This document shows, piece after piece, positions 34,612 through 52,611 of a stretch of 64,000 nucleotides of DNA. The position numbers were made by a program, and so were the translations under genes. Source of the DNA: Sphaerimonospora thailandensis (GTDB lineage: Bacteria > Actinomycetota > Actinomycetes > Streptosporangiales > Streptosporangiaceae). The stretch is taken from contig NZ_BOOG01000024.1 in assembly GCF_016863115.1 (NCBI RefSeq), positions 1 to 64,000 of the forward strand, written 5' to 3'. The notes under the pieces were generated by a model. The model made no database searches, was not told the DNA's origin, and worked only from the letters and a program-made list of their open reading frames with translations. Every line of letters starts with the position of its first letter. Within the stretch, counting starts at the first letter, position 1.

Positions 34612-34628
34612 ATCTCGGATGGCGAGAC
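34612..34628. promoter_or_regulatory. Putative NdgR-type operator upstream of ilvB
   Basis: ATCTCG-GATGG-CGAGAC, a 6-5-6 palindrome, 53 bp before the leader peptide start. A -35-like TTGACT follows at 34645-34650, so the site lies upstream of the promoter, an activator-like position. Same architecture as the sites at 44772, 48990, 62303 and 62373. Confidence 0.6.
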
Positions 34629-34680
34629 GGGTATTCCACATGATTTGACTCCGCCAGGGTCGATCGGACATCGTGGAGGC

Positions 34681-34728
34681 ATGCATAGCGGTGGGATCCT
34701 CGTAGTACTTCGCAGGCGCGCAGCCTGA
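34681..34728 (+). CDS. ilvB leader peptide (attenuator)
   Basis: [15 protein letters not shown], 15 codons, with a run of Ile-Leu-Val-Val-Leu. GGAGG is only 1 nt before the ATG, and TTGACT-N18-CATCGT ends about 7 nt upstream, so the message may be nearly leaderless. The 3' codons (GCGCGCAG, 34716-34723) pair exactly with CTGCGCGC at 34743-34750, which abuts the terminator. This is classical branched-chain amino acid attenuation. Confidence 0.8.
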
Positions 34729-34749
34729 CGAAGCCCTCGGTCCTGCGCG

Positions 34750-34786
34750 CGCCCCAACTCCGCACAGCGGATGGGGCGTTTTTTGT
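34750..34786 (+). terminator. ilvB attenuator terminator
   Basis: CGCCCCAACTCCG, loop CACAG, CGGATGGGGCG, then TTTTTT: a strong intrinsic terminator with a 2-nt bulge, between the leader peptide and ilvB. Confidence 0.8.
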
Positions 34787-34832
34787 GCCAGCAGACACCA
34801 CCAGCCACAAGCTCTCCACAAGGAACGAGCCG

Positions 34833-36578: not shown

Positions 36579-36618
36579 GCGAGCGGGGCAACCAGACCTG
36601 CGCCGAAGGAGGGGCGGC

Positions 36619-37143
36619 ATGAGCCTTCACACGCTGTCCGTCCTGGTCGAGAACAAGCCGGGCGTGCTCGCGCGCGTGGCCGCGCTGTTCAGCCGCCGCG
36701 GTTTCAACATCGAATCGCTGGCCGTCGGGCCCACCGAGCACGACGACATCTCCCGCATGACGATCGTCGTCAACGTTGAGGCCCTGCCGCTCGAGCAGGT
36801 CACCAAGCAGCTCAACAAGCTGGTCAACGTCATCAAGATCGTGGAGCTCGACAGCGCCCAATCGGTGCAGCGCGAGCTGATGCTGCTCAAGGTCAGGACC
36901 GACGCCGAGAGCCGCTCCCACGTCCTGGAAGTGGTCAACCTCTTCCGGGCCCGGTGCGTCGACGTCGCCCCTGACGCGGTGACCATCGAGGTCACCGGCA
37001 CGAGTGACAAGCTGAAGGCGTTCGTCCGGGTCCTGGAGCCGTACGGCATCAAGGAGCTCGTGCAGTCGGGCATGGTGGCCATCGGCCGCGGTGCCCGTTC
37101 CATCACCGACCGCTCGCTCCGGGCGCTGGAGCGCAGCGCGTGA
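36619..37143 (+). CDS. ilvN: Acetolactate synthase regulatory subunit
   Basis: 174 aa from ATG 36619, after GGAGGGG. Small subunit that activates IlvB and confers valine feedback. Two ACT-type domains: HTLSVLVENKPGVLARVAAL at the N-terminus and a second half from QRELMLLKVR. 40 bp downstream of ilvB. Confidence 0.95.
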   Translation: MSLHTLSVLVENKPGVLARVAALFSRRGFNIESLAVGPTEHDDISRMTIVVNVEALPLEQVTKQLNKLVNVIKIVELDSAQSVQRELMLLKVRTDAESRSHVLEVVNLFRARCVDVAPDAVTIEVTGTSDKLKAFVRVLEPYGIKELVQSGMVAIGRGARSITDRSLRALERSA

Positions 37144-38229
<1,086 letters not shown>

Positions 38230-38257
38230 CCGAGCTGATCGATTCGGTCTGACGCGT

Positions 38258-38293
38258 GAGAGCGGCGTCGCCCTTCCGGGCGGCGCCGCTCTC
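38258..38293. terminator. Terminator between ilvC and the FHA gene
   Basis: GAGAGCGGCGTCGCCC-TTCC-GGGCGGCGCCGCTCTC, 16-bp stem with one mismatch. It is placed to stop both converging genes. Confidence 0.75.
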
Positions 38294-38305
38294 ATCGTCG
38301 TGCGC

Positions 38306-38839
38306 TCAGGCGGAAGCGGACACGAGGAACGCGGAGTCGCCGAACGCGATCTCGTCGCCCGCCCGTACCCGGGCCGGTCCGACCAGGCGCCAGCCGTTCA
38401 GCCGGGTGCCGTTCATCGAGCCGAGATCGACCAGCAGCCACGAGCCGTCGTCACGGCGCAGTTCGGCATGCACCCGGGAGACCGTGAGATCCGCCAGCAC
38501 CAGGTCGCAGGCGGGCCCGCGGCCCACCACGTACCGAGCACGGTCGTCGGTGGGCAGCGCCAGCTTGGGCAGGCGAGGACGCCGCCAGGCGGACTCGACC
38601 CGATGGCTGAGATCCGACACAGCGGCCACGGCCTCCGTGATCCGCCTACGCCAACGCCCGCGCTGCGGGAGGTCCGCGACCAGCTCATCGAGCTCACCGC
38701 GGCTCTGTGCGCGCAGCGCCATGTCGACGCGGCCGATGAAGGTGTCCATGGACAGACGGCCTTCGGCGGCACGGCTGCGGAGCTCGTCGAGGGCGCGGTC
38801 GCGGTCCCCGTCCGAGGCGCGAACCGGGGGAGAGCTCAT
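38306..38839 (-). CDS. DUF1707-FHA domain protein
   Basis: 177 aa from ATG 38839. The N-terminus (VRASDGDRDRALDELRSRAAEG) is a DUF1707 domain, common in actinobacteria. The C-terminus is an FHA domain that should bind phosphothreonine: YVVGRGPACDLVLADLTVSRVHAEL…GSMNGTRLNG, with the conserved R, S, H and N. Likely reader in Ser/Thr kinase signalling; the partner is unknown. No strong ribosome site precedes the ATG. Confidence 0.85.
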   Translation of the reverse strand: MSSPPVRASDGDRDRALDELRSRAAEGRLSMDTFIGRVDMALRAQSRGELDELVADLPQRGRWRRRITEAVAAVSDLSHRVESAWRRPRLPKLALPTDDRARYVVGRGPACDLVLADLTVSRVHAELRRDDGSWLLVDLGSMNGTRLNGWRLVGPARVRAGDEIAFGDSAFLVSASA

Positions 38840-38935
38840 GACTGGAGTATCCGACTTGGCCGGGCGCAGTGTCCAGAAGACCTTCGCATTCCACCTCATT
38901 CCAGCGCCCAGACTTCACAACCATCGTGAGCGTGT

Positions 38936-38972
38936 CCCCCCGTGCCCACCCCCGCCCGCCACGGCTGGGGGG
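38936..38972 (-). terminator. GC-rich hairpin after the CAP gene
   Basis: CCCCCC-CACGG type arms (GGGGGG/CCCCCC and CCGTG/CACGG) separated by 15 nt, directly after the minus-strand stop. No T-run. Confidence 0.4.
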
Positions 38973-39908
38973 CTAGTGTTTGCCGAAATCCTGGGTCCAG
39001 TACGGGCCGCCGGCCTTGACGTAGCCGACGCCGATGTCCGTGTAGCTGCAGTTGAGCATGTTGGTGCGGTGGCCGGAGCTGTTCATCCAGCCCTGGACCA
39101 CCGCTTCCGGGGTCTGGTAGCCCTTGGCGATGTTCTCGGCGATCGCGGTGTAGGAGTACCCCGTCGCCCTGATGCGATCGGCGAAGGAACGGCCGTCCTG
39201 AGAGGTGTGGCTGAAGTAGTTCTTGGCGGACATGTCGGCCGAGTGGCCGTAGGCCGCCGTGTGCAGTTTGGCGTCGTGCGTCAGCGGTCCGCAGCCGACC
39301 TTGGCCCGCTCGACGTTGGTGAGGCGCACCACCTCGTTCTCGAGATCGGTGCCCACGACACCCGGCCCTGTCGCCGGACCGCTGCCCGTGGAGCCGCCGT
39401 TGGTGGTGCCCCCGTTCTGGGCGCCGCCTGTCGAACCGCTGCCTGTCGAACCGCCGCCTGTCGAACCGCTGCCCGCCGGTCCGCCGCTCGTGGAGTCGCT
39501 GCCCGTCGAGGCCCCGCCGTTCCCGTTGGGCGGCGTCGAGGCGCAGTTCACCCGGGTGGCCCTCGACCGTGACGTGTTGCCGCGGTAGTCGGTGACGGTC
39601 GTGTAGAACACGCCGTTCGCACAGCGCACGGTAAGCGTGAGGCGCCCGCTCTCGGTGACCTTGGCTCCGCTCTTCACCGCACGGTCCGGGCCTGTCACGG
39701 CCTTCCAGAGCCGGACCCGGACCTTCGCCGGGCCGGTGCATCCGATCCGGTAACCGGCGGCGCTGATCTTTCCGCTCTCCGTGACGTACGGCTTGGCGGC
39801 GGCGACCCGGCAGCCGAGATGCTCGGTCGTCGCCTGGGCGGCGCTGACCGGCAGGCTGATCACCGTGAGGCTGCCGAGGCACAGGGCCGCTCCGAGCGCT
39901 CTGTTCAC
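38973..39908 (-). CDS. Secreted CAP (SCP/PR1) domain protein
   Basis: 311 aa from GTG 39908, with GGAGGAAAGA upstream; longer frames lack a start signal. Signal peptide (ALGAALCLGSLTVISLPVSAAQA), a beta-type domain (about 35-135) with four cysteines, a Gly/Ser/Thr repeat linker (STGGGSTGSGSTGG) and a YkwD-type CAP domain: LTNVERAKVGCGPL, AAYGHSADMSAKNYFSHTS, IAENIAKGY and GWMNSSGHRTNMLN with the usual His/Glu residues. Extracellular; activity of bacterial CAP proteins is mostly unknown. A long leader (~150 nt) follows a candidate CATAAT -10 near 40063. Confidence 0.88.
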   Translation of the reverse strand: MNRALGAALCLGSLTVISLPVSAAQATTEHLGCRVAAAKPYVTESGKISAAGYRIGCTGPAKVRVRLWKAVTGPDRAVKSGAKVTESGRLTLTVRCANGVFYTTVTDYRGNTSRSRATRVNCASTPPNGNGGASTGSDSTSGGPAGSGSTGGGSTGSGSTGGAQNGGTTNGGSTGSGPATGPGVVGTDLENEVVRLTNVERAKVGCGPLTHDAKLHTAAYGHSADMSAKNYFSHTSQDGRSFADRIRATGYSYTAIAENIAKGYQTPEAVVQGWMNSSGHRTNMLNCSYTDIGVGYVKAGGPYWTQDFGKH

Positions 39909-40169
39909 GATCTTTCCTCCAGTTGAGGGGACAGGTCGGGTCGCGGGATCTCGCCGACTGCTGCGGGTGCTCCTCGTGGCGAGACCTGCGCGACACTCCC
40001 TGAGCCGCGCCCTCATCAGGACAAGGTCCGAGGTACGCGGCCCGAAGGCTGGTTGGAAACCGCATTATGGTGTCCTCAACCTCTATTGTCCGAAAAAATC
40101 ACAAAAGTCACGAAAATACCTACGTTCCAATGTCTCCCTGCAAGCACTCCAGCACCGTCCGTAGCGGTG

Positions 40170-41573
40170 TCAGGCGGTGGTGCCCTCGGCTTCGGACGTG
40201 TCGCCGGGCGCCGTACCGCCGGAGGCCGTGTCGTCGTCGGCCAGGGCCGCGAGCCGGTCGGCGGTGAGGTCGTATCTCAGCGTCATCAGCACCGCGGCCA
40301 GCGACATGAGGGCGGGCACGAGGGTCACGCCGAGGATGACCGCCGTGTGCGCGCTGTCCGGCTGCGCCACCGGGTTCTCCGGATTCGAGGAGATGAAGCC
40401 GCCTGTGGCGAGCACCGCGCCGTAGACGGTGGCGCCCAAGGCGGACACGGCGTTCTCGACGGCCGTCCACAGTCCGGTGAAGACGCCTCCGCGGCGCTCG
40501 CCGCTCACCGTGCTGTCGTGGGCGATCACGTCGGCGAGCATGGAGAACTGCAGAAGTTGCAGGCCCGCGTATCCGAGCCCGATCGACACGACGGCGAGAT
40601 GGGCGTAGAGGGAGCCGAGTATGGGGGTGGCGATGAGCAGCGAAGCGCCGACCAGGAACAGCGACCCGGCCAGGATCATCGCGCCGCGCTTGTCGAGCCT
40701 GCGGGCCAGCCGCACCCACAGTGGCATGGTGACCAGCATCGGCCCGACGAGCGCGGCGAAGAGCGTGCTCGTGGCGCCGGTGTCGCGCAGGACGTAGGCC
40801 GCGAAATAGGGGGCTCCGGCGAGCATGACCCCCGCGGCGAGGTTCTGGGCCGAGCTGAGGCCGAGCAGCCACAGGAACGGTCTGCTCGTCCTGACGGCGG
40901 CGAGCTGGGACCGGAGGGTGCCGTCCGATCGCTGCCGCCCGATGAACGGGGCGCGAGCCGTACCCAGGAACGACCCGATCATCGCGGCGAGCAGGATCGC
41001 CGCGAAGGTGATGCCCATCAGGCGATAGCCGTCGGCCGAGTCCCCGGCGAGCATCGGCGCGACGACTCCGCTGAGCGCCACCGAGACCGCGACGAAGATC
41101 ATCCGCCACTGCAGCAGGGAGGTCCGTTCGTGGTAGTCGCCCGTCATCTCGGCCGGCATCGCCTTGTACGGAACCTCGTACAGGGCGTATCCGGTGGAGG
41201 CGAACAGGAACGCGACACCCACGAAGACCGCGGCGGGGACGCCGGTGAGCGGCGGCCCGCTGAACATCGCGGCGAAGGACACCGGGAGCACGGCGGCCCC
41301 GGCCAGCAGCCAGGGCCGGCGCGGCCCCCAGCGTGAGGAGGTGCGGTCCGACCAGCGGCCGACCAGGGGGTTGACGAGGAGGTCCCACGCCTTCGGCAGG
41401 AACAGGACGAGGCCGGCGAGCACGGCGGGCACCGCCAGCACGTTCGTCATGTAGTACAGCAGGAGGAGGCCGGGGACGGCCGTGAAGTTGGCCGTGCAGA
41501 ACGAGCCGACCGCATAACCGAGGCGTACACCATGGGAGACGGTCGCGGGGGGCGTCGCCGCCGAGGAGGCCAT
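40170..41573 (-). CDS. MFS/GPH-type transporter
   Basis: 467 aa from ATG 41573; TTG 41594 is an upstream alternative. Twelve predicted membrane helices. The N-terminal LGYAVGSFCTANFTAVPGLLLLYYMTNVL and the loop PLVGRWSDRTSSRWGPRRPWLL match the glycoside-pentoside-hexuronide:cation symporter branch of MFS, which moves sugars with H+ or Na+. Substrate unknown; it stands alone with no sugar genes adjacent. Confidence 0.85.
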   Translation of the reverse strand: MASSAATPPATVSHGVRLGYAVGSFCTANFTAVPGLLLLYYMTNVLAVPAVLAGLVLFLPKAWDLLVNPLVGRWSDRTSSRWGPRRPWLLAGAAVLPVSFAAMFSGPPLTGVPAAVFVGVAFLFASTGYALYEVPYKAMPAEMTGDYHERTSLLQWRMIFVAVSVALSGVVAPMLAGDSADGYRLMGITFAAILLAAMIGSFLGTARAPFIGRQRSDGTLRSQLAAVRTSRPFLWLLGLSSAQNLAAGVMLAGAPYFAAYVLRDTGATSTLFAALVGPMLVTMPLWVRLARRLDKRGAMILAGSLFLVGASLLIATPILGSLYAHLAVVSIGLGYAGLQLLQFSMLADVIAHDSTVSGERRGGVFTGLWTAVENAVSALGATVYGAVLATGGFISSNPENPVAQPDSAHTAVILGVTLVPALMSLAAVLMTLRYDLTADRLAALADDDTASGGTAPGDTSEAEGTTA

Positions 41574-41771
41574 GCCGACATTCAAGCCGAGCAAGCGTTC
41601 GGGTGGAAGGTCCGCATCCGAGATTTCGGTCCGACCGTGTCAGTGCGCGCGTTCCCGGCGGAACCGGGCAGGCTCACGCCGACGACCCGGCCCGTCGGGC
41701 GCCCGCACGGGAGCTGAGCGGGGCCACGGCCGAGGACCGCCGGCTCTCCTCCCCGCTCAGCTCTCCAGGCG

Positions 41772-42710
41772 TCAGCCCCTGGCGTCCGGGCAGACCACGT
41801 GGGCGCCGATCTCGATCATCCGGCGTTCCGTGTGCGCGTCCGTGATCCGGGCCATGAGCACCGGAGCCCCGCTGGCCGCGAGCTGTGGCAGCCGGGCGCG
41901 GACCCGGCGGTGCACGTCCCGGACGATGTCCTCGCCCGTCGCCGTGTGCACCTTGACGAGCAGCATGAGCCCCCAGGACCCGGAGACCGTCCGGGCTTCG
42001 GAGATCCATACGTGGTGCACATGGGGGTAGTCGCGCAGCAGTTCGGAGACCGCCACCCGGAGCGCGGGCAGGATCGGATGGCTCGTCCGGCGATAGCCGG
42101 GGTCGACGACCTGCATGGCACCGGACAGGTGCTGGCGGGGCGCCGGGATCCGGGCGGGTGGGACGGAGCCGGGAGCGGCCGACACCCGTTCCGGGGCGGG
42201 CACGGGTGGAGCGGCCAGGGGAGGAATCGACGGCGGGCTGCCGGAGGCCGCCGGGGGAGCCGCGTGTGCCACCTGCGAGCGGGTCACCGTCGCCATGGCG
42301 CCGGTGGCGTACGCCGCAGGGGTGGCGGCCGAGCGCATCGCCGACACCGCCGGCGTGGGACCGGTCCGGCTTGATTGGAGGTGACGCCGCAGGTCGTCGA
42401 TGGGTACGGCTGCCGCCGCCGGACCCGCCGCGTCGATGACGATCTCCCGGACACCCGTGACCTGCTGGATGTCGAGGATGGTGTCGGCGTCGCAGGCCGA
42501 CAACGAGTGGCTGCCGCGGTGCCGGGCGTAGGTCGCCGGCGCCGTGTAGCCGAGCAGCACGCGATCACCGCTCTGCGTCGTGCCGAGCACCACGGAGCGG
42601 TCGGGGCGGACGGCCACCAGGATGCCCCGCTCGGCTAGGGCTGACAGCAACTGCTGGGGGCTGCCGTGCCGTGCGAGAACGTCACCCAGGGAGGGGTTCC
42701 CGATGCTCAT
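41772..42710 (-). CDS. SseB-like protein
   Basis: 312 aa from ATG 42710. The N-terminal half (LLSALAERGILVAVRPDRSVVLG…GDRVLLGYTAPATYARH) resembles the SseB N-terminal domain. A Pro/Ala-rich linker joins a C-terminal domain (DPGYRRTSHPILPALRVAVSELLRDYP, then VHHVWISEARTVSGSWGLML) like the SseB C-terminal 'enhanced serine sensitivity' part. The linker is unusually long. No Shine-Dalgarno is seen; a TATTGT element about 8 nt upstream suggests a leaderless message. It is divergent from serA, which is interesting because SseB is linked to serine tolerance in E. coli. Confidence 0.65.
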   Translation of the reverse strand: MSIGNPSLGDVLARHGSPQQLLSALAERGILVAVRPDRSVVLGTTQSGDRVLLGYTAPATYARHRGSHSLSACDADTILDIQQVTGVREIVIDAAGPAAAAVPIDDLRRHLQSSRTGPTPAVSAMRSAATPAAYATGAMATVTRSQVAHAAPPAASGSPPSIPPLAAPPVPAPERVSAAPGSVPPARIPAPRQHLSGAMQVVDPGYRRTSHPILPALRVAVSELLRDYPHVHHVWISEARTVSGSWGLMLLVKVHTATGEDIVRDVHRRVRARLPQLAASGAPVLMARITDAHTERRMIEIGAHVVCPDARG

Positions 42711-43061
42711 AGGCCGAACAATAGGGGGTGAACCATAGCGAATCAGGCTAATCCCGAAGATGGGTGCGATCAATACCGAGATGGCGGGCCGCACGAATAG
42801 GACCGGTCCAAACTGGGTACGGCAACGGCTCAGGCCATCACACACGGCGGCCATGCGACTTCCTCGCGTCATAGGGGGCGGCCTGGCCCGCACTGCCGGC
42901 CCGTCGGTCCCGCATCGCCGGCCCCGCCCGGCCGGCTCCCGGGCGGCCGACATGGGCGCCGTCTCGGATGGCGGATCGCTCGTGAGAGCTTTCACAAGCC
43001 CGGATACACTCGACGACTGTCCGTGCTGTCGCACTTCTCGAACTTTTCGAAGGACTCACCA
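42711..43061. promoter_or_regulatory. Divergent region between the SseB-like gene and serA
   Basis: Without genes. GTCTCG-GATGG-CGGATC at 42961-42977 is a degenerate form of the branched-chain operator (left arm intact, 12 bases identical to the ilvB site). TACACT near 43004 is a possible -10 for serA. Confidence 0.4.
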
Positions 43062-44651
43062 GTGAACAAGCCCGTCGTTCTTGTCGCAGAGGAGCTTTCC
43101 GACGCGGGTCTCGCCGTGCTCGGCGCGGACTTCGAGGTCCGTCACACCGACGGAGCAGACCGCTCGCAGTTCCTGCCGGCTCTCGCCGACGTGGACGCCC
43201 TGATCGTCCGCAGCGCCACCCAGGTGGACGCCGAGGCCATCGCGAACGCGCCCAAGCTGCGCGTCGTCGCCCGCGCGGGCGTCGGACTCGACAACGTCGA
43301 CGTCGAGGCGGCCACCAAGGCCGGTGTCATGGTCGTGAACGCGCCGACCTCCAACATCACCAGCGCGGCCGAGCACACCGTCGCGCTCATCCTCGCCGGC
43401 GCACGCAACGTGGCCCAGGCGCACACCGCGCTCAAGGGCGGCGAGTGGAAGCGGTCCAAGTACACCGGCGTCGAGCTCGACGGCAAGGTCGTCGGCATCC
43501 TGGGCCTCGGCAAGATCGGTCAACTCGTCGCCCAGCGCCTGCAGCCGTTCGGCGTCGAGCTCGTCGCATACGACCCCTACCTTCAGCCGGCCCGGGCCGC
43601 GCAGATGGGCGTCCGGCTGCTCTCGCTGGAGGAGGTCCTGACGCAGGCCGACTTCCTCACGGTCCACCTGCCCAAGTCGAAGGAGACGATCGGGCTGATC
43701 GGCGACCGCGAGCTGCATCTGGTCAAGCCGACCGTCCGCCTGGTCAACGTCGCCCGCGGCGGGATCATCGACGAGAACGCGCTCTACTCCGCACTCAAGG
43801 AGGGCCGGGTGGCCGGGGCCGCGATCGACGTGTTCGCCAAGGAGCCGTGCACCGACAGCCCGCTGTTCGAGTTCGACCAGGTCGTCGCCACCCCGCACCT
43901 CGGAGCCTCCACCCACGAGGCCCAGGAGAAGGCCGGCACCCAGGTCGCCCGCAGCGTCAAGCTCGCGCTCGCCGGCGAGTTCGTGCCCGACGCGGTGAAC
44001 GTCCAGGGCGGCGCGGTCGCCGAGGACGTCAAGCCGGGCCTGCCGCTCACCGAGAAGCTCGGGCGCATCTTCACCGCGCTCGCCGGCGAGGTGGCCACCC
44101 GGCTCGATGTCGAGATCCGCGGTGAGATCGCCTCCCAGGACGTGCGCGTGCTGGAGCTCGCCGCGCTCAAGGGGGTCTTCACCGACGTGGTCGAGGACGC
44201 GGTGACGTACGTCAACGCCCCGCTGCTCGCCCAGGACCGCGGCACCGTGGTCGAGCTGGTCACCAGCTCCGAGAGCCCCGACTGGCGCAACGTCGTCACC
44301 GTGCGCGGGGTGCTGGCCGACGGCCGTACGGTCTCGGTCTCGGGCACGCTGTCCGGCCCCCGGCAGGTCACGAAGATCGTCGAGGTCAACGGCTTCGCCA
44401 TGGAGATCGAGCCGACCGATCACCTCGCGTTCTTCACGTACGCGGACCGGCCCGGCATCGTCGGCACCGTCGGCCGGCTGCTCGGCGAGCACGGGACCAA
44501 CATCGCCTCCATGCAGGTCTCCCGCGACGTCAAGGGCGGCAAGGCCCTGATCGCGCTCACCGTCGACTCGGCGATCCCGGCCGACGTCGTCGAGCAGATC
44601 GCCGGTGAGATCGGCGCCGACGGCGGCCGCACGGTGAACCTCGAGGACTGA
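43062..44651 (+). CDS. serA: D-3-phosphoglycerate dehydrogenase
   Basis: 529 aa from GTG 43062 (GAAGGA upstream). First enzyme of serine synthesis. Catalytic domains with GILGLGKIGQLVAQRL, VNVARGGIIDENAL and ATPHLGASTHEAQ, then the ASB domain and a C-terminal ACT domain (DRPGIVGTVGRLLGEHGTNIASMQV). This is the long actinobacterial form, inhibited by serine. An in-frame extension upstream to 43023 is Ser-rich but lacks a start signal. Confidence 0.95.
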   Translation: MNKPVVLVAEELSDAGLAVLGADFEVRHTDGADRSQFLPALADVDALIVRSATQVDAEAIANAPKLRVVARAGVGLDNVDVEAATKAGVMVVNAPTSNITSAAEHTVALILAGARNVAQAHTALKGGEWKRSKYTGVELDGKVVGILGLGKIGQLVAQRLQPFGVELVAYDPYLQPARAAQMGVRLLSLEEVLTQADFLTVHLPKSKETIGLIGDRELHLVKPTVRLVNVARGGIIDENALYSALKEGRVAGAAIDVFAKEPCTDSPLFEFDQVVATPHLGASTHEAQEKAGTQVARSVKLALAGEFVPDAVNVQGGAVAEDVKPGLPLTEKLGRIFTALAGEVATRLDVEIRGEIASQDVRVLELAALKGVFTDVVEDAVTYVNAPLLAQDRGTVVELVTSSESPDWRNVVTVRGVLADGRTVSVSGTLSGPRQVTKIVEVNGFAMEIEPTDHLAFFTYADRPGIVGTVGRLLGEHGTNIASMQVSRDVKGGKALIALTVDSAIPADVVEQIAGEIGADGGRTVNLED

Positions 44652-44731
44652 GCGGAAGCTCGGGGACTCGAGCGGAACATCGAGGACTGAGCGGGACCTC
44701 GGAGACTGTCCCGGGTCGCCCTCGTCTCCTG

Positions 44732-44772
44732 AGCCCGTACGGCGGTGCCCCCGCCGTACGGGCTTCTTGTTG
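44732..44772 (+). terminator. serA terminator
   Basis: AGCCCGTACGGCGG-TGCCC-CCGCCGTACGGGCT, a perfect 14-bp stem followed by TCTTGTTGT. Confidence 0.8.
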
Positions 44773-44788
44773 TCTCACATAATGAGAT
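44772..44788. promoter_or_regulatory. Putative NdgR-type operator upstream of leuB
   Basis: GTCTCA-CATAA-TGAGAT, 41 bp before the leader peptide at 44830. A -10-like GATAAC follows at 44814-44819. Confidence 0.6.
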
Positions 44789-44829
44789 ACTAGGTCGTCC
44801 TACAAGATTCTGCGATAACCTGAAACGGT

Positions 44830-44877
44830 ATGACGCGCCAGGTATCCGTACTCATTACCTGCCGCGGCGGGGCCTGA
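44830..44877 (+). CDS. Candidate leuB leader peptide
   Basis: MTRQVSVLITCRGGA, 15 codons with Val, Val, Leu and Ile. Its 3' codons CCGCGGCGGG (44862-44871) pair exactly with CCCGCCGCGG at 44892-44901, as in the ilvB and cimA leaders. No clear T-rich terminator follows (only a 5-bp hairpin at 44906-44920), so attenuation here is less certain. Confidence 0.5.
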   Translation: MTRQVSVLITCRGGA

Positions 44878-45042
44878 TCAGGGTGGGCCGGCCCGCCGCG
44901 GTGTGCGGCGTTGTGCGCCGTCGGCCGTCGGCTTCTGTGACCGAGAGCGTGTGACCCACGCCGAGTCGGAGCCGACATTCCGGGATCCGCGACCCGGATC
45001 TGCTCTCCTTTCTCCCGTTCTTCTTCGCGAATGAGATCCACC

Positions 45043-45153
45043 ATGTACGAGATGTATCCCTGGAACCGTCCCGAGGACGCCGAAGACGAGGCCGCCGCCG
45101 CGCTGCAGATCGCGCTCGACCGTCGTGACAACGGCGGTCAGCCGGTCCGCTGA
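45043..45153 (+). CDS. Small conserved-type protein before leuB
   Basis: 36 aa, MYEMYPWNRPEDAEDEAAAA followed by LQIALDRRDNGGQPVR. Short proteins with MYEMYPW and ALDRRDNGG ends are familiar to me from actinobacterial genomes, often annotated as hypothetical, so this is probably a real gene. It is acidic then basic, without membrane or cysteine motifs. It lies 80 bp before leuB behind the leader region. Function unknown. Confidence 0.6.
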   Translation: MYEMYPWNRPEDAEDEAAAALQIALDRRDNGGQPVR

Positions 45154-45233
45154 GCTCGGCACGACCAATCAGCCGGAATGCCCGAATGGTGAGATCGGCG
45201 TTCGATCTCCGAGACACCCGGTAAGGTACTCCC

Positions 45234-46280
45234 ATGGAGTCGAGCAACATCCGTCTGGCCGTCATCCCTGGTGACGGGATCGGCGCCGAGGTCGTGGCCG
45301 AGGGGCTCAAGGTCCTCCACGCCGTCGGCGTCAAGGCCGAGACGACTGAATATGATCTCGGGGCGAAGCGCTATCACGCGACCGGAGAGACCCTCCCCGA
45401 TGCGGTGCTGGAGGAGCTTCGCGGCTATGACGCGATTCTGCTCGGCGCGGTCGGCGACCCCAGCGTCCCCCCGGGCGTCCTGGAGCGCGAGCTGCTGCTC
45501 AGGCTCCGTTTCGAGCTGGACCACTACGTGAACCTCCGCCCGGTCAAGCTGTTCCCCGGGGTGGCGACCCCGCTCGGCGAGGCCCGCCCCGAGGACATCG
45601 ACATGATCGTCGTCCGTGAGGGCACCGAGGGTCCGTACGCCGGAGCCGGCGGCGTGCTGCGCCGCGGCACGGCGCAGGAGATCGCCACGCAGGAGTCGCT
45701 GAACACCGCCTTCGGCGTGGAGCGTGTCGTGCGTTACGCGTTCGAGAAGGCTCAGGCCAGGCCCCGCCGCAAGCTCACGCTGGTCCACAAGACCAACGTG
45801 CTGACCTTCGCGGGCGACCTCTGGGCGCGTACGGTCGACCGGGTGAGCCAGGAGTTCCCCGACGTGGAGACCGATTACTGCCACATGGACGCGGCCTCGA
45901 TGTTCTTCATCACCCAGCCGCAGCGCTTCGACGTGATCGTCACCGACAACCTCTTCGGCGACATCCTCACCGATATCGGCGCGGCCATCGCCGGGGGCAT
46001 CGGCCTGGCCGCCAGTGGTAACGTCAACCCGGCCCGTACGGCGCCGTCGATGTTCGAGCCCGTGCACGGCAGCGCCCCCGACATCGCGGGCCAGGGCAAG
46101 GCCGACCCCACCGCCACCATCCTGTCCATCGCCATGCTCCTCGACCACATCGGGTCCGCCGAGGCCGCGGCCCGGGTCGAGCAGGCCGTCGCCGACGACC
46201 TGGTCGAACGGCAGGGAGCCTGGACGGCCAGGGCGACCCGTGAGATCGGCGACGACATCGCGGCACGAGTAGCGGGGTGA
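45234..46280 (+). CDS. leuB: 3-isopropylmalate dehydrogenase
   Basis: 348 aa from ATG 45234. NAD-dependent beta-decarboxylating dehydrogenase of leucine synthesis. [46 protein letters not shown] and [12 protein letters not shown]-type ([14 protein letters not shown]) motifs carry substrate, metal and NAD residues. [17 protein letters not shown] is the C-terminal signature. A terminator follows before ilvE, so the genes are separately transcribed. Confidence 0.95.
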
Positions 46281-46302
46281 TCCGGGCCGTCACCTGATCA
46301 AT

Positions 46303-46337
46303 GCGCATGGCGGCCCGCGGGGCGCCATGCGCTTTTT
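46303..46337 (+). terminator. leuB terminator
   Basis: GCGCATGGCG, 10-nt loop, CGCCATGCGC, then TTTTT: perfect 10-bp intrinsic terminator. Confidence 0.9.
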
Positions 46338-46426
46338 CATACCTGCCCAATGCCGTAGTTTTCCGTTAGACAGGTCGTCGCCGCACAATGAACCGTGACG
46401 ACGACGTCGAGAAAAGGATCTTCGCC

Positions 46427-47515
46427 ATGACTCAGCTCAGCTTCGATGTGCAGCTCAATCCGCGAGCCCGCAGCGCGGGGGAGCGTGAGGAAGTATTGGC
46501 GAACCCCGGCTTCGGGCAGTTCTTCACCGACCACATGATCTCCATCGACTGGACCGAGGGGCGCGGCTGGCACGACGCCCGGCTCCAGCCGTACGGCCCG
46601 CTGGTCCTCGATCCCGCGACGTCGGTCTTCCATTACGCGCAGGAGCTGTTCGAGGGGCTCAAGGCGTACCGGCAGTCGGGCGGTTCGATCGTCGCCTTCC
46701 GGCCGCACGCCAACGCGGCGCGCTTCAACAGGTCCGCGGCCAGAATGGCCATGCCCGAGTTGCCCGAGGACGTGTTCGTCCAGTCGCTGGAGCTGCTCGT
46801 GCAGACCGACCGCGAGTGGGTGCCGACCACCGACGGCCACAGCCTCTACCTGCGGCCCTTCATGATCGCGACGCAGGCGGCGCTCGGGGTGAACCACCCG
46901 TCGAGGACCTACAAGTACATGGTGATCGCCTCGCCCGCCGCCTCGTACTTCTCCGGCGGCGTCAAGCCCGTCTCGGTCTGGCTGTCCACCGAGTTCACCC
47001 GGGCCGCTCCCGGCGGGACCGGCTTCGCCAAGTGCGGCGGCAACTACGCCGCCGCCTTCGTCGCCCAGCGTCAGGCCGTCCAGGAGGGCTGCGACCAGGT
47101 CGTCTGGCTCGACGCCTTCGAGCATCGCTGGGTCGAGGAGATGGGCGGGATGAACCTCTTCTTCGTCTTCGGCGACCGCCTGGTCACCCCCACCCTCACC
47201 GGCACTCTGCTGCCGGGCATCACCCGCGACTCGATCCTCAGCATCGCCGCCGAGCTCGGCCTCCGGCCGGAGGAGGGCAAGATCTCGATCGAGGACTGGC
47301 AGTCGGCCTGCGAGTCGGGAGAGCTCACCGAGGTCTTCGCGTGCGGCACTGCCGCCGTGGTCACCCCCGTGGGCTCCGTCAAGGGCGCCGACCGCGGCTG
47401 GGCCGTGGGCGACGGCACCCCCGGCCCGGTCACCATGAAGATTCGCGAGGAGCTCGTCGGCATTCAGTACGGCTTCCGCCCCGACACCCGCGACTGGATC
47501 CACAAGATCTGCTGA
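46427..47515 (+). CDS. ilvE: Branched-chain amino acid aminotransferase
   Basis: 362 aa from ATG 46427 (AAAAGGA 9 nt upstream; ATG 46388 is an alternative). PLP fold-IV enzyme making Leu/Ile/Val from their 2-oxoacids. YAQELFEGLKAYR, FRPHANAARFNRSA, the PLP lysine in AKCGGNYAA, and EVFACGTAAVVTPVG are typical of the type II form. No operator or leader is seen before it. Confidence 0.95.
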   Translation: MTQLSFDVQLNPRARSAGEREEVLANPGFGQFFTDHMISIDWTEGRGWHDARLQPYGPLVLDPATSVFHYAQELFEGLKAYRQSGGSIVAFRPHANAARFNRSAARMAMPELPEDVFVQSLELLVQTDREWVPTTDGHSLYLRPFMIATQAALGVNHPSRTYKYMVIASPAASYFSGGVKPVSVWLSTEFTRAAPGGTGFAKCGGNYAAAFVAQRQAVQEGCDQVVWLDAFEHRWVEEMGGMNLFFVFGDRLVTPTLTGTLLPGITRDSILSIAAELGLRPEEGKISIEDWQSACESGELTEVFACGTAAVVTPVGSVKGADRGWAVGDGTPGPVTMKIREELVGIQYGFRPDTRDWIHKIC

Positions 47516-47535
47516 GTCCCCGAAACCACGGAACA

Positions 47536-47564
47536 GGCCCGGCCCGGAACCATCCGGCCGGGCC
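47536..47564. terminator. Terminator between ilvE and the Uma2 gene
   Basis: GGCCCGGCC, 11-nt loop, GGCCGGGCC; 9-bp stem placed between convergent genes. Confidence 0.65.
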
Positions 47565-47587
47565 CTCGTTCAGTCGTCTCGTACGGC

Positions 47588-48178
47588 TCAGGCCTCGATC
47601 AGCTTGCCCGTGTCGATCGTCAGATCCCACGGCTCCGGCAGGGGCAACGGCTTGCCCAAGGTCACTTCGACCTGGTGCTGATAGCCGTTCTCGCTCGGTT
47701 CGGCCATAAGCCGGGCGACGTTCTGGAAGGTGTCGATCACCAAATAGAGCGGAACCCCGGCGATGGCACAGTTCTTCGGCTTCATCACGTGGTCGTCATC
47801 CTGACTGCTGGGAGAGACGACCTCGACGACAAGCAGTGTCTGGTTTCCGTAGACGTTCTCCGGATCCCACATTCGGGGACTCCGCGGCACTACAGTGGCA
47901 TCCGGCCGATATCGGTCGAGCTGCGCGCCCAGGAAGATCTTGATGTCATTGCAGATAACCCACTTCTTGCTGTCCACGAACGACATGAGCTGAAGTAGCA
48001 GGCGGAAGACGACGTTGTTGTGATCGAGTGTGGGCACCTCTCTGATCACGACCCTGCCGCGGAGGATTTCGACTTTCTGCTCCGCGCTGCTGAAGCAGAT
48101 CTTCCTGTAGAGGCTTTGGAGATCTGCGCGTGCGGTCTCTTCAGGTGTCGTAGCGGGTGGATCCAGGACCTTGGCCAT
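47588..48178 (-). CDS. Uma2 family (DUF820) putative endonuclease
   Basis: 196 aa from ATG 48178 (GGAGGGG about 11 nt upstream). PD-(D/E)XK-like fold: VEILRGRVVIREVPTLDHN, RYRPDATVVPRSPRMWDP, LLVVEVVSPSSQDDDHVMKPKNCAIAGVPLYLVID gives the D…E-x-V acidic core and Lys. The family is abundant in actinobacteria and cyanobacteria; its biological role is not settled. Lone gene with slightly lower GC than its neighbours, a hint of transfer. Confidence 0.8.
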   Translation of the reverse strand: MAKVLDPPATTPEETARADLQSLYRKICFSSAEQKVEILRGRVVIREVPTLDHNNVVFRLLLQLMSFVDSKKWVICNDIKIFLGAQLDRYRPDATVVPRSPRMWDPENVYGNQTLLVVEVVSPSSQDDDHVMKPKNCAIAGVPLYLVIDTFQNVARLMAEPSENGYQHQVEVTLGKPLPLPEPWDLTIDTGKLIEA

Positions 48179-48273
48179 GAGAGCATCATCCCCTCCCGGC
48201 GGGAAAACGCAACGTGATTGACTCAAGACATAAAGTAGTCACAAAGCGTGGCGCTCGCCGGGGTTGTCGAAAA

Positions 48274-48927
48274 TCAGTTCTTGCGGATGAGGGTGAGTCC
48301 GTCGGCGAAGGGGAGCAGGATGCTGGTCACCCGCGGATCGGCGCTGACCAGGTCGTTGAACGCCCGCATCCCGGGCACGTTGCCCCCGGCGGCCGGGTCG
48401 ACGATCTCGCCCTCCTGCAGCGTGTTGTCCACGGCGATCAGCCCGCCCGGCCTGAGCCGTACGAGAAGCTCCTCGTAGTAGACCGGGTAGCCGGCCTTGT
48501 CGGCGTCGATGAAGGCGAAGTCGATCCACTCCTCGCGGGGCATGGCCCGGAGCGTCTCGGCGGCCGGTCCGAGGCGAAGCTCGATCCTGTCCGAGACGCC
48601 CGCCTTGTCCCAGTACCGCTGGGCAACGGACGTCCATTCCTCGCTGACGTCACAGGCGATGAGGCGGCCGTCCGCCGGCATGCCCCTGGCGATGCAGATC
48701 GATGAGTAGCCGGTGAAGGTGCCGACCTCGACGGCCCGGCGGGCCCCGACGAGGCCCACGAGCATGGTGAGCAGCGTGCCCTGTTCGGGGGAGATCTGCA
48801 TGGTGTCGTCGTCGCCGACGAGCCGGTGCGTCTCCTCCGTGAGGGCGCGGAGCAGATCGTCGGGCGGGGTGGTGTGCGCGATGGTGTACTCGGCCACTGC
48901 GGTATCGATGAACTCGGCAACCTTCAT
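48274..48927 (-). CDS. SAM-dependent O-methyltransferase
   Basis: 217 aa from ATG 48927; a TAGTGT element about 8 nt upstream suggests a leaderless transcript. Class I methyltransferase of the CCoAOMT/MdmC group: AVEVGTFTGYSSICIARGMP (SAM loop), IACDVSEEW, FAFIDADKAGYPVYYEELL with the metal Asp residues and AVDNTLQEGEIVDP. Substrate (a catechol-like hydroxyl) is unknown. Confidence 0.88.
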   Translation of the reverse strand: MKVAEFIDTAVAEYTIAHTTPPDDLLRALTEETHRLVGDDDTMQISPEQGTLLTMLVGLVGARRAVEVGTFTGYSSICIARGMPADGRLIACDVSEEWTSVAQRYWDKAGVSDRIELRLGPAAETLRAMPREEWIDFAFIDADKAGYPVYYEELLVRLRPGGLIAVDNTLQEGEIVDPAAGGNVPGMRAFNDLVSADPRVTSILLPFADGLTLIRKN

Positions 48928-48989
48928 GCGAACCACACTAACCATGGCGGTTCGCGAGCGGGCGAAGCGTGGTCGGAGCACTCGTCCGC

Positions 48990-49006
48990 GTCTCGTACTC
49001 TGAGAT
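48990..49006. promoter_or_regulatory. Putative NdgR-type operator upstream of cimA
   Basis: GTCTCG-TACTC-TGAGAT, 44 bp before the cimA leader peptide start. Confidence 0.6.
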
Positions 49007-49050
49007 CGATGTGCCAGAGGCTGGGAGCATGTGGCAGACTCCTAGGCACC

Positions 49051-49095
49051 ATGTTCTACGGTCTGCTCATTATCGGCAGGCGCGCCGGCCACTAA
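49051..49095 (+). CDS. cimA leader peptide (attenuator)
   Basis: MFYGLLIIGRRAGH, 14 codons with Leu-Leu-Ile-Ile. Its end codons CGCGCCGGC (49081-49089) pair exactly with GCCGGCGCG (49105-49113), which abuts the terminator. Same design as the ilvB leader. Confidence 0.75.
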   Translation: MFYGLLIIGRRAGH

Positions 49096-49114
49096 AGGGA
49101 CAACGCCGGCGCGC

Positions 49115-49148
49115 AGACCTCTCACGTCCGTGAGGGGTCTTTTTGTTT
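49115..49148 (+). terminator. cimA attenuator terminator
   Basis: AGACCTCTCACG-TC-CGTGAGGGGTCT, 12-bp stem with one G-T pair, then TTTTGTTT. Confidence 0.8.
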
Positions 49149-49197
49149 GGGGCCGATGGGCGCGCGGCGACGACGGACCCGCGAAGGAGACGAAGAG

Positions 49198-50799
49198 ATG
49201 ACCGACGACGGCTTCCACGTGTACGACACGACGCTCCGTGACGGAGCCCAGCAGGAGGGGCTGAACCTGTCAGTCGCCGACAAGCTGGCGATCGCTCGTC
49301 ACCTGGACGGTCTGGGCGTCGGCTTCATCGAAGGTGGCTGGCCGGGCGCCAACCCCAAGGACACCGAGTTCTTCAGGCGGGCTCAGACCGAGCTCGACCT
49401 GAGGCACGCGCAGCTCGCCGCGTTCGGCGCGACCCGCCGGGCCGGTGTGAAGGCCGCCGACGATCCGCTGGTGGCCGCCCTGCGCGAATCCGGAGCGCCG
49501 GTCGTGACGCTTGTCGCCAAGAGCCATGACCGGCACGTGGAGCTGGCCCTCCGCACGACACTGGAGGAGAACCTCGCGATGATCCGCGACACGGTCTCCC
49601 ACCTTCGTGCGGAGGGCCGGCGCGTCTTCCTGGACGCCGAACATTTCTTCGACGGGTACCGCTCCAACCGCGCCTACGCGCTCGAGGTGCTGCGCACCGC
49701 GGCCGAGGCCGGCGCCGACGTGGTGGCGCTGTGCGACACCAACGGCGGCATGCTCCCCGACGAGCTCGCCGAGGTCGTCCACGAGGCGACCGCCACGGGG
49801 GCGCGGATCGGCATCCACTGCCACGACGACACCGGCTGCGCGGTGGCCAACACCCTGGCCGCGGTGCGGGCCGGCGCCACCCACGTGCAGGGATGCGCCA
49901 ACGGGTACGGCGAACGCTCGGGCAACGCCAACCTCTTCACGGTGGTGGCCAACCTCCAGCTCAAGCGGGGGTTCGAGCTCGTGCCGCCGCAGGCGCTGGC
50001 CGACATGACGCGCATCGCCCATGCGATCACCGAGGTCACCAACGTCACGCCCAACTCCCACCAGCCCTATGTGGGCGCCTCGGCCTTCGCCCACAAGGCC
50101 GGGCTGCACGCCTCGGCTATCAAGGTGGACCCCAACCTCTACCAGCACATCGATCCCGCCATGGTCGGCAACGACATGCGCATGCTGGTCTCCGACATGG
50201 CCGGCCGCGCCTCGGTGGAGCTCAAGGGCCGCGAGCTGGGCTACCAGCTGACCGGGGAGCAGTCCCGCGAGCTGGTCGAGCGGGTCAAGGACCTGGAGTC
50301 GCGCGGGCACACCTTCGAGGCCGCCGACGCCTCCTTCGAGCTGCTGCTCCGCGACACCGTCGCCGGCGAGCGCAAGCGGTACTTCACCGTCGAGTCCTGG
50401 CGCGTCATCGTCGAACGCCGCCCCGTCGTCGACCCCCTCACCGGCGCGGCGACCTTCGAGGTCGTGAGCGAGGCCACGGTGAAACTCCAGGCCAAGGGCG
50501 AGCGGATCGTCGCGACCGGCGAGGGCAACGGCCCGGTCAACGCCCTGGACAAGGCGGTACGGCTGGCCCTGGAGAAGCTCTACCCCGAGCTCGCCGCCGT
50601 CCAGCTCATCGACTTCAAGGTCCGCATCCTGGAAGGGACGCACGGCACCGGCGCGATCACCCGGGTTCTGATCACGTCCAGCGACTCGACCGGCGACTGG
50701 GCCACCGTCGGCGTCGACGAGAACATCATCGAGGCGTCCTGGCAGGCTCTGGAGCAGGCCGTGACGTACGGACTCCTCCGTGCGGGACACCACGCCTGA
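49198..50799 (+). CDS. cimA: Citramalate synthase
   Basis: 533 aa from ATG 49198 (AAGGAGA upstream). DRE-TIM enzyme condensing pyruvate and acetyl-CoA to (R)-citramalate, the threonine-independent route to isoleucine. DTTLRDGAQQEGLNLS, GVGFIEGGWPGANPKD (typical of CimA rather than LeuA), GIHCHDDTGCAVAN and NGYGERSGNANL; then a LeuA-type C-terminal regulatory domain. The product enters the LeuCD/LeuB steps also encoded here. Its leader has Leu and Ile codons. Confidence 0.92.
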   Translation: MTDDGFHVYDTTLRDGAQQEGLNLSVADKLAIARHLDGLGVGFIEGGWPGANPKDTEFFRRAQTELDLRHAQLAAFGATRRAGVKAADDPLVAALRESGAPVVTLVAKSHDRHVELALRTTLEENLAMIRDTVSHLRAEGRRVFLDAEHFFDGYRSNRAYALEVLRTAAEAGADVVALCDTNGGMLPDELAEVVHEATATGARIGIHCHDDTGCAVANTLAAVRAGATHVQGCANGYGERSGNANLFTVVANLQLKRGFELVPPQALADMTRIAHAITEVTNVTPNSHQPYVGASAFAHKAGLHASAIKVDPNLYQHIDPAMVGNDMRMLVSDMAGRASVELKGRELGYQLTGEQSRELVERVKDLESRGHTFEAADASFELLLRDTVAGERKRYFTVESWRVIVERRPVVDPLTGAATFEVVSEATVKLQAKGERIVATGEGNGPVNALDKAVRLALEKLYPELAAVQLIDFKVRILEGTHGTGAITRVLITSSDSTGDWATVGVDENIIEASWQALEQAVTYGLLRAGHHA

Positions 50800-50825
50800 C
50801 AGCGACGATGTAGCTGAGCGCGGTT

Positions 50826-50861
50826 TCCCGGGCCGGCCTGTCCGGACAGGCCGGCCCGGGA
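50826..50861. terminator. Perfect palindrome between cimA and the heparinase-like gene
   Basis: TCCCGGGCCGGCCTGTCC is followed directly by its own complement: 18-bp arms, no spacer. It serves converging genes as a bidirectional terminator. Confidence 0.8.
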
Positions 50862-50901
50862 GATGGGCATCAGGCCCGTGGTCGATCAGGCCCGTTGATT
50901 G

Positions 50902-52611
50902 TCAGGACAGGGTGCCCGAGGCGCCTACCCGCAGGGTCACCGAGCCGCCGGAGGTCTGGACGGCCACGGTGCGTCCCGAGCAGGTGACGTTCGGCTTGTC
51001 CGTGCCGGGCACGATGACCGTCAGCAGCGCCCCGGACGCGGGGGATACCACCGCCGGGGCGGGCACCTTCTTCATGTAGGAGGGCGAGATCCACCCCTGG
51101 TAGGGACTGGTCTGCCCGCTGACCACCCGTTGCCCCCCGATCGGCCGGCATGACGGAATGGCGAGCTGGACGAGAGTGGCGCGCCAGTCGCCGTCCGCCA
51201 CCACGATCCGTCCCCGCTCCGCGGAGACGACCTTCAACGCCGGGTCGAAGTGCCACAGGTTCCGCAGCTTCCCGTCCCCGGTGTCGAGGACGGCCATCAG
51301 GTCATCGTGATGATTGACCAGCACCGATCGGGTGCGGCGCACGCCGTACGCCAGGTCGGTCAGTGTGAACGACTGCCGGTCCTTGCCGATGGAACGGCGG
51401 GTGAGGGGCGACGCGGTGTGGCCGCGGAACTTCCTGCCGACCATCACCGGCACGTTGTGGGCCTCGGGCGTCAATGTCCAGCGGCGGTACGGAGTGCCCT
51501 CGTAGGAGTGGAAGCCCGCCTCGGTGAGGATGGAGCGGCCCTGGGCGTAGTAGGTCACGCCCAGGTGGTCCTCGTGCCCGTGGAACTTCTGGCCCGGGCC
51601 GAAGCGGATCGAATAGTACGCCGACTGCGGGTCGTCCCAGGCGGTGCGGCCGAAGACGTACCCCGCCTTGAAGACCTCGACGGTCTTCTTGCCGTGGTCG
51701 AAGCCGGTCGGCTGGACGTCGGCGCCGCCGTCCCCGATGGGCACCAGGTAGCCGTTCGGCATGGTGGCCGCGGCGATGTGCCCCGTCAGGTTCTTCCAGC
51801 GCCGCGTCAGCGTGCTCGGCGCCTTCAGCCCGCAGTAGTCGATCGTGTCCATCGCGACCCTGAGCCGCTCATGGACGTAGATCGCGTAGCGGGGGGCCTG
51901 CTCCATGAGGGCGCCCTCGGAGTCGATGTCGAGCTTCGCCGACCTGACCATGCGGCGCAGGGCCAGATCCTTCCAGCCCTTGTTGCCGTAGCGGCAGCCG
52001 ATCCGCAGCAGACCGATGTCCTGGTCGAAGCCGTGGTTGTGACCGGCCTCGTACTTGCTCGGATCGGCCAGCAACTTCGCGTGCTGAGCGAGGCTGCGGG
52101 TGAGCCAGGAGCCCTTGACATGCCGGCTCAGGCAGACCAGGGCCGGGGCGCGGAGTGCGACGGGGTGCTCCGCCCAGGCGTACTTGGCGGTGCCGCGGCC
52201 GCCGTAGGGGTTGTCCGCCACCCAGTCCTCGGCGATCTCGACCGCCCGCTTGAGGTATTCCCCGTTGCCGGTCGTCTCGTAGTCGGCGACCAGCCGGCCC
52301 ATCCAGCGCAGCGACTGGAAGACCATCTGCCAGGACCGGTTCCGGTACGGATCCATCCGCCAGTTGACGTCCTTGCCCACGCTGACGGCCGGGAAGTCGA
52401 GAAACGACAGCTTGCCGTCCATGATCTCCGAAGAGGTGGGGGTGGCGGGCAGCCAGTCCCCCTGACATTCGGCCGTCTGTTTCACGCCCGCCACCGACGC
52501 GGCGGCCGCCGGCGGACCGCCCGGAAGGACAAGGGGCGACACGGTGCCCAGAAGGACCAGGGCGGACAGAGCCGGGCCGTGCTTCCTGAGGACTTGAGTG
52601 CGGCCGCGCAC
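50902..52611 (-). CDS. Secreted heparinase II/III-like protein
   Basis: 569 aa from GTG 52611 (GGAAGGA 8 nt upstream). A signal peptide (ALVLLGTVSPLVLPGGPPAAAAS) is followed by an alpha/alpha-toroid domain (about 60-300: NWRMDPYRNRSWQMVFQSL, YEAGHNHGFDQDIGLL) and a beta-sandwich with FGPGQKFHGHEDHLGVTYYA, the HGHxD motif of the family. Such lyases degrade acidic polysaccharides (heparin, alginate). The substrate cannot be inferred. No neighbouring carbohydrate genes. Confidence 0.82.
   Translation of the reverse strand: MRGRTQVLRKHGPALSALVLLGTVSPLVLPGGPPAAAASVAGVKQTAECQGDWLPATPTSSEIMDGKLSFLDFPAVSVGKDVNWRMDPYRNRSWQMVFQSLRWMGRLVADYETTGNGEYLKRAVEIAEDWVADNPYGGRGTAKYAWAEHPVALRAPALVCLSRHVKGSWLTRSLAQHAKLLADPSKYEAGHNHGFDQDIGLLRIGCRYGNKGWKDLALRRMVRSAKLDIDSEGALMEQAPRYAIYVHERLRVAMDTIDYCGLKAPSTLTRRWKNLTGHIAAATMPNGYLVPIGDGGADVQPTGFDHGKKTVEVFKAGYVFGRTAWDDPQSAYYSIRFGPGQKFHGHEDHLGVTYYAQGRSILTEAGFHSYEGTPYRRWTLTPEAHNVPVMVGRKFRGHTASPLTRRSIGKDRQSFTLTDLAYGVRRTRSVLVNHHDDLMAVLDTGDGKLRNLWHFDPALKVVSAERGRIVVADGDWRATLVQLAIPSCRPIGGQRVVSGQTSPYQGWISPSYMKKVPAPAVVSPASGALLTVIVPGTDKPNVTCSGRTVAVQTSGGSVTLRVGASGTLS

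Follow-up and report, generated by a model that had tools for sequence, protein, structure and literature searches.

A probable LEU-type leader element ahead of a small gene at the leuB locus of Sphaerimonospora thailandensis

Organization of the serA-leuB interval

The interval between serA and leuB in the Sphaerimonospora thailandensis DNA analysed here (the window, 64,000 nucleotides in all) houses operator-like sites, a short leader frame, two helices and a gene of 36 codons. Coordinates of all features are collected in Table 1. The operator-like dyad is the one place in the 64-kb window where TCTCAN5TGAGA is matched without error; sites with two or fewer mismatches number 14 in the same stretch, 16.3 being expected from shuffles, and are thus not in excess. 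The regulator acting at the dyad is presumably NdgR/LtbR, of the IclR family. The initial annotation had placed the leader at the same distance from the operator as in the ilvB and cimA leaders of the window. This holds approximately only, as the start of the dyad and the leader ATG are 57 nt apart here, about 68 nt at ilvB and 60 nt at cimA. In Streptomyces coelicolor NdgR binds upstream of leuB, according to passages of PMC4340878; the NdgR motif given there is unlike the TGAGA half-sites of the S. thailandensis locus.

Table 1. Features of the serA-leuB interval, in window coordinates
Feature	Position	Strand	Remarks
serA	ends 44651		
Terminator-like hairpin	44731-44765		
Operator-like dyad TCTCACATAATGAGAT	44773-44788	+	dyad TCTCACATAATGAGA at 44773-44787
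Half-sites TGAGAT and CAAGAT	44783-44788 and 44803-44808		14 nt in between, the spacing of the half-sites before leuB
-10 box TAACCT	44816-44821	+	8 nt before the leader ATG
Leader peptide ORF MTRQVSVLITCRGGA*	44830-44877	+	ATG at 44830, TGA at 44875-44877; frame conservation, codon pattern, rare codons
Candidate control codons GTA TCC GTA CTC ATT (Val-Ser-Val-Leu-Ile)	44842-44856	+	codon pattern in 43 leaders
Pseudoknot stem 1, 5' arm	44862-44871	+	exact pairing; compensatory changes
Pseudoknot stem 2, 5' strand GGCCGG	44886-44891	+	covariation
Pseudoknot stem 1, 3' arm	44892-44901	+	exact pairing; compensatory changes
Pseudoknot stem 2, 3' strand TCGGCC	44921-44926	+	covariation
SD-like stretch AATGAGAT, rich in purines, ahead of the small gene	45030-45037	+	AATGAG complementary to leader CTCATT (44851-44856)
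Small gene, 36 codons, MYEMYPWN...ALQIALDRRDNGGQPVR*	45043-45153	+	proposed target; matches in 103/150 genomes, dN/dS
leuB promoter: half-sites TGAGAT-N14-CGAGAC, -10 box TAAGGT 6 nt before the ATG	45190-45227	+	
leuB	45234-46280		ATG at 45234

Conservation of the leader frame and of its pseudoknot

The 36-residue product of the small gene, used as query, finds a match in 103 of 150 genomes of the family, and 70 of these loci (the best 30 and 40 more, the window's own included) were taken for comparison. Alignment A1 is made of 43 leaders, chosen by a pattern which demands an open frame; exact duplicates (L085, L105, L114), a near-duplicate (L104) and the version of L127 with a longer start were set aside, and the window stands for L081. 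A covariance model of 116 positions, called R1 and featuring stem 1 only, was built from the 43 leuB-locus leaders. R1 matches 55 of the 70 small-gene loci, the weakest accepted match having an E value of 2.7e-6, and finds no element in the other 15. As the loci came from a small-protein search, 55/70 is the rate among the better-conserved small genes. A class-wide search with R1 gave matches in 89 of 118 genomes; the best-scoring 30 of the class-wide loci sort into 15 leuB/serA loci, 14 leuA loci and one unplaced locus (L204). No Rfam family comes near its gathering score in positions 33000-52000 of the window. Judged from these comparisons, the leader element is real and widely conserved, not an artefact.

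The leader ORF noticed in the initial annotation reads as described; Val is encoded twice in it, Leu and Ile once each. In nearly all well-conserved loci the peptide conforms to M(T)RQV[LFS]V[LI][LI]TCRGG[AV]* and is accompanied by the same stem. Since the pattern behind A1 demands an open frame, conservation of the frame was counted on the 55 model matches instead: 46 have an in-frame ATG and stop enclosing 13-17 residues, and L122 may be added as the 47th, its frame being intact and the stop located later. Frame, start or stop are non-standard in 9 of the 55 elements, among them those of a whole genus which keeps the hairpin. The start is lost in L125 and L088; frame, stop and stem have decayed in L118, and L143 carries a different frame. 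Loss of the frame next to conserved flanking genes, named beforehand as evidence against a leader peptide, is not general, and was encountered in one genus, g65 (L090, L091, L129, L130), which retains stem 1 with its loop sequence and has no leader frame left. A 5-codon mini-ORF starting with TTG is found in place of the leader frame in L129 and L130.

Codon -8, counted from the stop, specifies Leu, Ile or Val in all 43 leaders, by means of six different codons; the same residues occupy codon -7 in 41/43 and codon -9 in 39/43. Both Val codons of the window leader are GTA, which is rare: six genes of the window use it for 1.9% of their 265 Val codons. Its Ile codon ATT is rare as well (2.5% of 118 Ile codons in the same genes). 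Part of the codon pattern could stem from a constraint towards U-rich RNA. GUA has been named as a control codon in passages on the ilvB leaders of Mycobacterium tuberculosis (PMC13236596) and Corynebacterium glutamicum (PMC11857589).

A TANNNT box lies 6-10 nt upstream of the leader ATG in 42/42 leaders; among 1926 control positions 11 have one. The count covers leaders for which 75 nt of upstream sequence are available, L010 of the 43 being omitted because its upstream region is too short. Given this spacing, the leader transcript most likely starts at its own ATG, or a few nt away from it, and would thus be leaderless.

The exact 10-bp pairing between the end of the leader ORF and the sequence behind it was confirmed. 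On the evidence of covariation, this stem is one half of an H-type pseudoknot, the first loop of which includes the leader UGA. In alignment A1 the loop of stem 1 carries GGCCGG, which can pair with CCGGCC 20-40 nt downstream. Over both helices 98.5% of 728 cells are paired, and two-sided changes are found in 9 of 17 pairs (23 such cells). Compensatory changes involve 4 of the 10 pairs of stem 1 and 5 of the 7 pairs of stem 2, in which 96.7% of the cells are paired. None of 500 shuffles reached any of these pairing statistics, and with the partner displaced by 1-3 columns no more than 2 pairs remained. The minimum free energy of the window sequence is no better than that of shuffles (z scores of 0.23 for 44830-45060 and -0.09 for the pseudoknot region), as calculated on GC-rich sequence by programs which do not model pseudoknots; likewise, stem length per sequence does not exceed that of shuffles for most leaders (median, 12-37% of shuffles equally good). 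Because neither folding energies nor stem lengths lend support, the case for the pseudoknot is one of covariation. The initial annotation was correct in calling the next stem weak and devoid of T's: what follows stem 1 is the second strand of the pseudoknot, and no terminator.

The small gene as candidate target and the possible mode of control

Differences among the small genes amount to 0.145, 0.102 and 0.349 per site at codon positions 1, 2 and 3, respectively, and the median dN/dS is 0.22 (740 pairs of 39 distinct 36-residue members), a pattern which indicates that the 36-codon frame is a protein gene. Its product has no match in Pfam or in NCBIfam. Relatives of the gene (...LQRALDRRDNGG...) reside just upstream of leuB in Streptomyces, Jiangella and Thermobifida, and in the loci inspected they are preceded by other 5' leaders. 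A different, conserved-looking leader (AGCCGAACGTCTCGCTCGATCAAGCGAATGGCGGTCGTGAGCC... / CAGGCAACCCCTGCGG) stands before the small gene in the Streptomyces loci L024, L027, L037 and L049; scans of L024 and L019 gave no Rfam match for the Streptomyces leader.

The element had been considered a candidate leader of leuB in the style of the ilvB and cimA attenuators. A genuine leader peptide linked to BCAA genes is supported by the comparisons. The assignment to leuB as an attenuator is not supported: leuB has half-sites and a -10 box of its own, and no intrinsic terminator is conserved. The accompanying caveat, that another mechanism might operate or that the small gene might be the one controlled, proved right: leuB has a separate promoter, and the element is tied to the small gene. 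A TANNNT box is found 6-8 nt before the ATG of leuB in all 46 leuB genes examined, whether the small gene is adjacent or not, and half-sites resembling TGAGAT-N14-CGAGAC precede the -10 box in most of the 46, as judged by eye. Since leuB has its own leaderless promoter, the RNA made from it cannot carry the element. Within the family, small gene and leuB are no more than 300 nt apart in 27 of the 55 element-bearing loci, and leuB is not a close neighbour in 28 (located at about 1 kb in 5, and missing from the 546-1497 nt seen in 23). The small gene is thus likely to be the target of the leader, on the strength of these sequence comparisons.

Outside the family a small ORF intervenes between the element and leuB in 14/14 loci, namely 12 of the 15 leuB/serA loci among the best 30 class-wide ones, and two named Aeromicrobium loci. 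The ancestral unit therefore looks like element, small ORF and leuB, in this order. In some of the other families small ORF and leuB overlap or adjoin, with an ATGA overlap in L187 and gaps of about 10 nt in L183, L198 and L203; in Kribbella turkmenica (L051) the ORF MYDMYPANW...NGGEPKK* overlaps the GTG start of leuB by GTGA, and the two may be translationally coupled. Arrangements of this kind would suit a leader governing leuB itself, by a transcript that extends across the small gene and in which the small ORF serves as translational coupler. This reading is improbable: the Kribbella locus has no R1 match, small gene and leuB are separated by 55-208 nt in the family under study where leuB is near (33 loci), and both the separate leuB promoter and the many loci in which leuB is distant speak against it.

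In genus g28 (L102, L116, L141, L144) the LEU-type element is absent. In its stead, the small gene of all four loci is preceded by a perfect 11-bp inverted repeat with arms GGCAGACCTCC and GGAGGTCTGCC and 8 nt between them; the hairpin begins directly after the -10 box, ends exactly at the ATG of the small gene and buries its SD sequence. Initiation of the small gene therefore seems to be a step controlled by RNA, which indirectly favours translational control.

The explanation we favour, with moderate confidence, is a LEU-type element in which stalling on BCAA codons would open translation of the small gene. That control is exerted specifically on initiation of small-gene translation is a narrower proposition, argued by analogy, and one we hold as evenly balanced. 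When charged Val-, Leu- or Ile-tRNA is short, the ribosome would stall on GTA-TCC-GTA-CTC-ATT, and its presence would prevent the leader from folding back onto the start region of the small gene, so that the small protein would be produced. With BCAA in ample supply, the ribosome would finish at the UGA and leave; the pseudoknot and a long-range pairing could then take shape, and the small gene would be translated less. Speaking against this explanation are genus g65 with its hairpin but no leader frame, the 15 of 70 small-gene loci devoid of the element, and the published codon mutants of a leuA leader, which did not act as in classical attenuation (PMC1262725).

A candidate for the long-range pairing is the 6-bp match between CTCATT in the control codons (44851-44856) and AATGAG in the SD region of the small gene (45030-45035). 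The duplex energy of control codons and SD region is marginal, permuted partners being equally good in 172/5000 trials for the family and 101/5000 for the class, and a test of the longest stem formed with the SD region gives no significance, permutations being equally good in 748 and 1359 of 5000. The leuA leaders pass the longest-stem test with 43/5000, and less clearly, with 220/5000, once GU pairs are admitted (24 of 26 leaders, L169 and L160 having no start found). Several stem definitions were compared, and as they were settled on with examples already in view, the marginal values themselves err on the optimistic side. With a marginal energy and a stem length that is not significant, the control-codon:SD stem is therefore kept as an inferred pairing.

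Transcription attenuation of the classical type, as at ilvB and cimA, would account for a BCAA leader peptide ending inside a stem, as the ilvB and cimA leaders do. These two leaders of the window (ilvB, 34681-34790; cimA, MFYGLLIIGRRAGH*, 49051-49150) were described as attenuators, and with their U-run terminators they do look like classical ones. At the leuB locus a leader peptide with control codons was found, and a U-run terminator set against an antiterminator was not. No U-run terminator follows the stem, and the strand behind it covaries with the loop, to which it pairs. In a scan of 42 of the 43 leaders (L149 left out), the spacer from pseudoknot to small gene proved to have no intrinsic terminator that is conserved; the one terminator-like site of the window, 44983-45001, has a counterpart of any form in 4/42 relatives only. 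R1, moreover, matches neither the ilvB nor the cimA leader. A third attenuator of the ilvB/cimA type was hence rejected, being a most improbable reading of the leuB-locus leader.

The same element might act through Rho, or through RNA decay. In the Rho version, early exit of the ribosome would bare a pyrimidine-rich segment at about 44999-45028, where Rho would end transcription; stalling of the ribosome, or folding of the pseudoknot, would block termination. This would accord with the lack of a conserved intrinsic terminator and with a 20-nt stretch between pseudoknot and small gene having a raw median pyrimidine content of 80%; Rho was proposed in PMC1262725 for cys leaders devoid of terminators. 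High-GC actinobacterial spacers, however, are often C-rich, and the distance from codon -5 to the small gene is a mere 92-93 nt in L003 and L094, which is short for Rho loading. Action through Rho or decay is on balance rather unlikely.

It is less probable that the pseudoknot is mainly a protein-binding site, the peptide being secondary. A protein of the ML1624 family, with a DEAD-box helicase domain, was suggested by Seliverstov et al. in 2005 as binder of the LEU element of leuA, and doubts on codon sensing at leuA have been published as well (both in PMC1262725). Retention of the hairpin in genus g65, which lacks the frame, fits such a role; yet most lineages preserve the peptide frame together with its BCAA positions and its rare codons, and with a leaderless promoter in 42/42 leaders, transcription is likely to begin at the ATG. 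Stalling on BCAA codons of a LEU-type element is thus retained as the preferred explanation.

Kinship with the LEU element of leuA and other leader systems

The LEU element of leuA includes a leader ORF, a pseudoknot and a base stem joining Leu codons to the SD sequence of leuA, as described in PMC1262725. R1, although no leuA leader entered it, matches 28 of 30 leuA loci at E<=0.01. In the genome to which the window belongs (G000), only two sites pass this threshold, that of the window with an E value of 1e-16 and that of leuA with one of 9e-6; two further weak matches appear at E<=1 only. The leuA gene of this genome resides on another contig (G000:C9), and its leader (L159), MLRGLLLIRRGEGL*, has the same layout as the window leader; neither L159 nor four other loci scanned contain an Rfam family above gathering threshold. 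Because a model free of leuA leaders finds leuA leaders, the window leader is regarded as a LEU-type element at a second place: the 44830-44926 segment is almost certainly a LEU-type homolog. The helices of its pseudoknot are presumably those of the published LEU element, a correspondence inferred from the leuA leaders and the R1 cross-matches. The element precedes the small gene and leuB, not leuA, and is therefore filed as the leuB-locus variant of the LEU element; on this comparative basis it is a new location for a known element.

Elements matched by R1 occur also in other surroundings. In G159 a match (L180:1288-1394, E 1.5e-6) lies just before a leuA/citramalate-synthase-like gene which is only distant kin of the TIGR00970 leuA genes. 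In Actinomadura viridilutea another (L006:3954-4053, E 1.7e-4) is found about 100 nt after ilvE.

Neither a LEU-type element at leuB nor the microprotein encoded downstream was found described in open-access PubMed Central (titles, starts of abstracts, passages). The conserved microprotein, marked by the motifs ...LQxALDRRDNGG... and ...RPDDN, has no match in Pfam or NCBIfam and appears to be under amino-acid control. The LEU-type pseudoknot may be a duplicated, class-wide unit, the second target of which would be this microprotein, retained beside leuB across Actinomycetes, made on BCAA shortage and potentially a regulator of the pathway or of LeuB; we give this view an even chance. If true, the small ORF overlapping leuB in some families would relay the RNA signal to leuB. 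The LEU element of leuA has been a puzzle since 2005, with a conserved pseudoknot and leader peptide, and a mechanism still unproven. A second and independent location, with other control codons and another downstream gene, makes codon sensing, pseudoknot and SD pairing experimentally separable.

The two forms of the LEU element share a short leaderless ORF, a cluster of BCAA codons, a C/R-R-G-G-like end, a stem spanning the stop codon, the pseudoknot and the lack of an intrinsic terminator. The leuA leader of Streptomyces lividans, LeuL1 (MRFGLLLLSCRGEGL*), is leaderless and without terminator, as stated in passages of PMC8079986; codon mutants of the S. coelicolor leuA leader, reported in PMC1262725, behave unlike classical attenuation. 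Differences are also evident. A run of Leu codons in the leuA leaders is replaced here by mixed Val/Leu/Ile codons, many of them rare, with a single Leu in the window. The leuA element stands before leuA, whereas the gene that follows the window element is the 36-codon one of the leuB locus, and the spacer from codon -5 to the ATG of the next gene measures 183 nt in the window versus 89-167 nt in 24 leuA loci. Unlike the published base stem of leuA, the control-codon:SD stem is not demonstrable at the leuB-locus element.

Other actinobacterial leaders are less akin. The ilvB attenuators, as described in passages on C. glutamicum (PMC11857589) and M. tuberculosis (PMC13236596) and as seen in the window, resemble the leuB-locus element in their BCAA leader peptides and GUA control codons, but feature U-run terminators and act on transcription, whereas the leuB-locus element has neither terminator nor antiterminator. 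The leaders of mycobacterial cys operons, described in PMC1262725, are likewise actinobacterial leader peptides without terminator. They differ in relying on Cys codons and in having no conserved terminator hairpin reported in that paper, while the window element carries a conserved pseudoknot.
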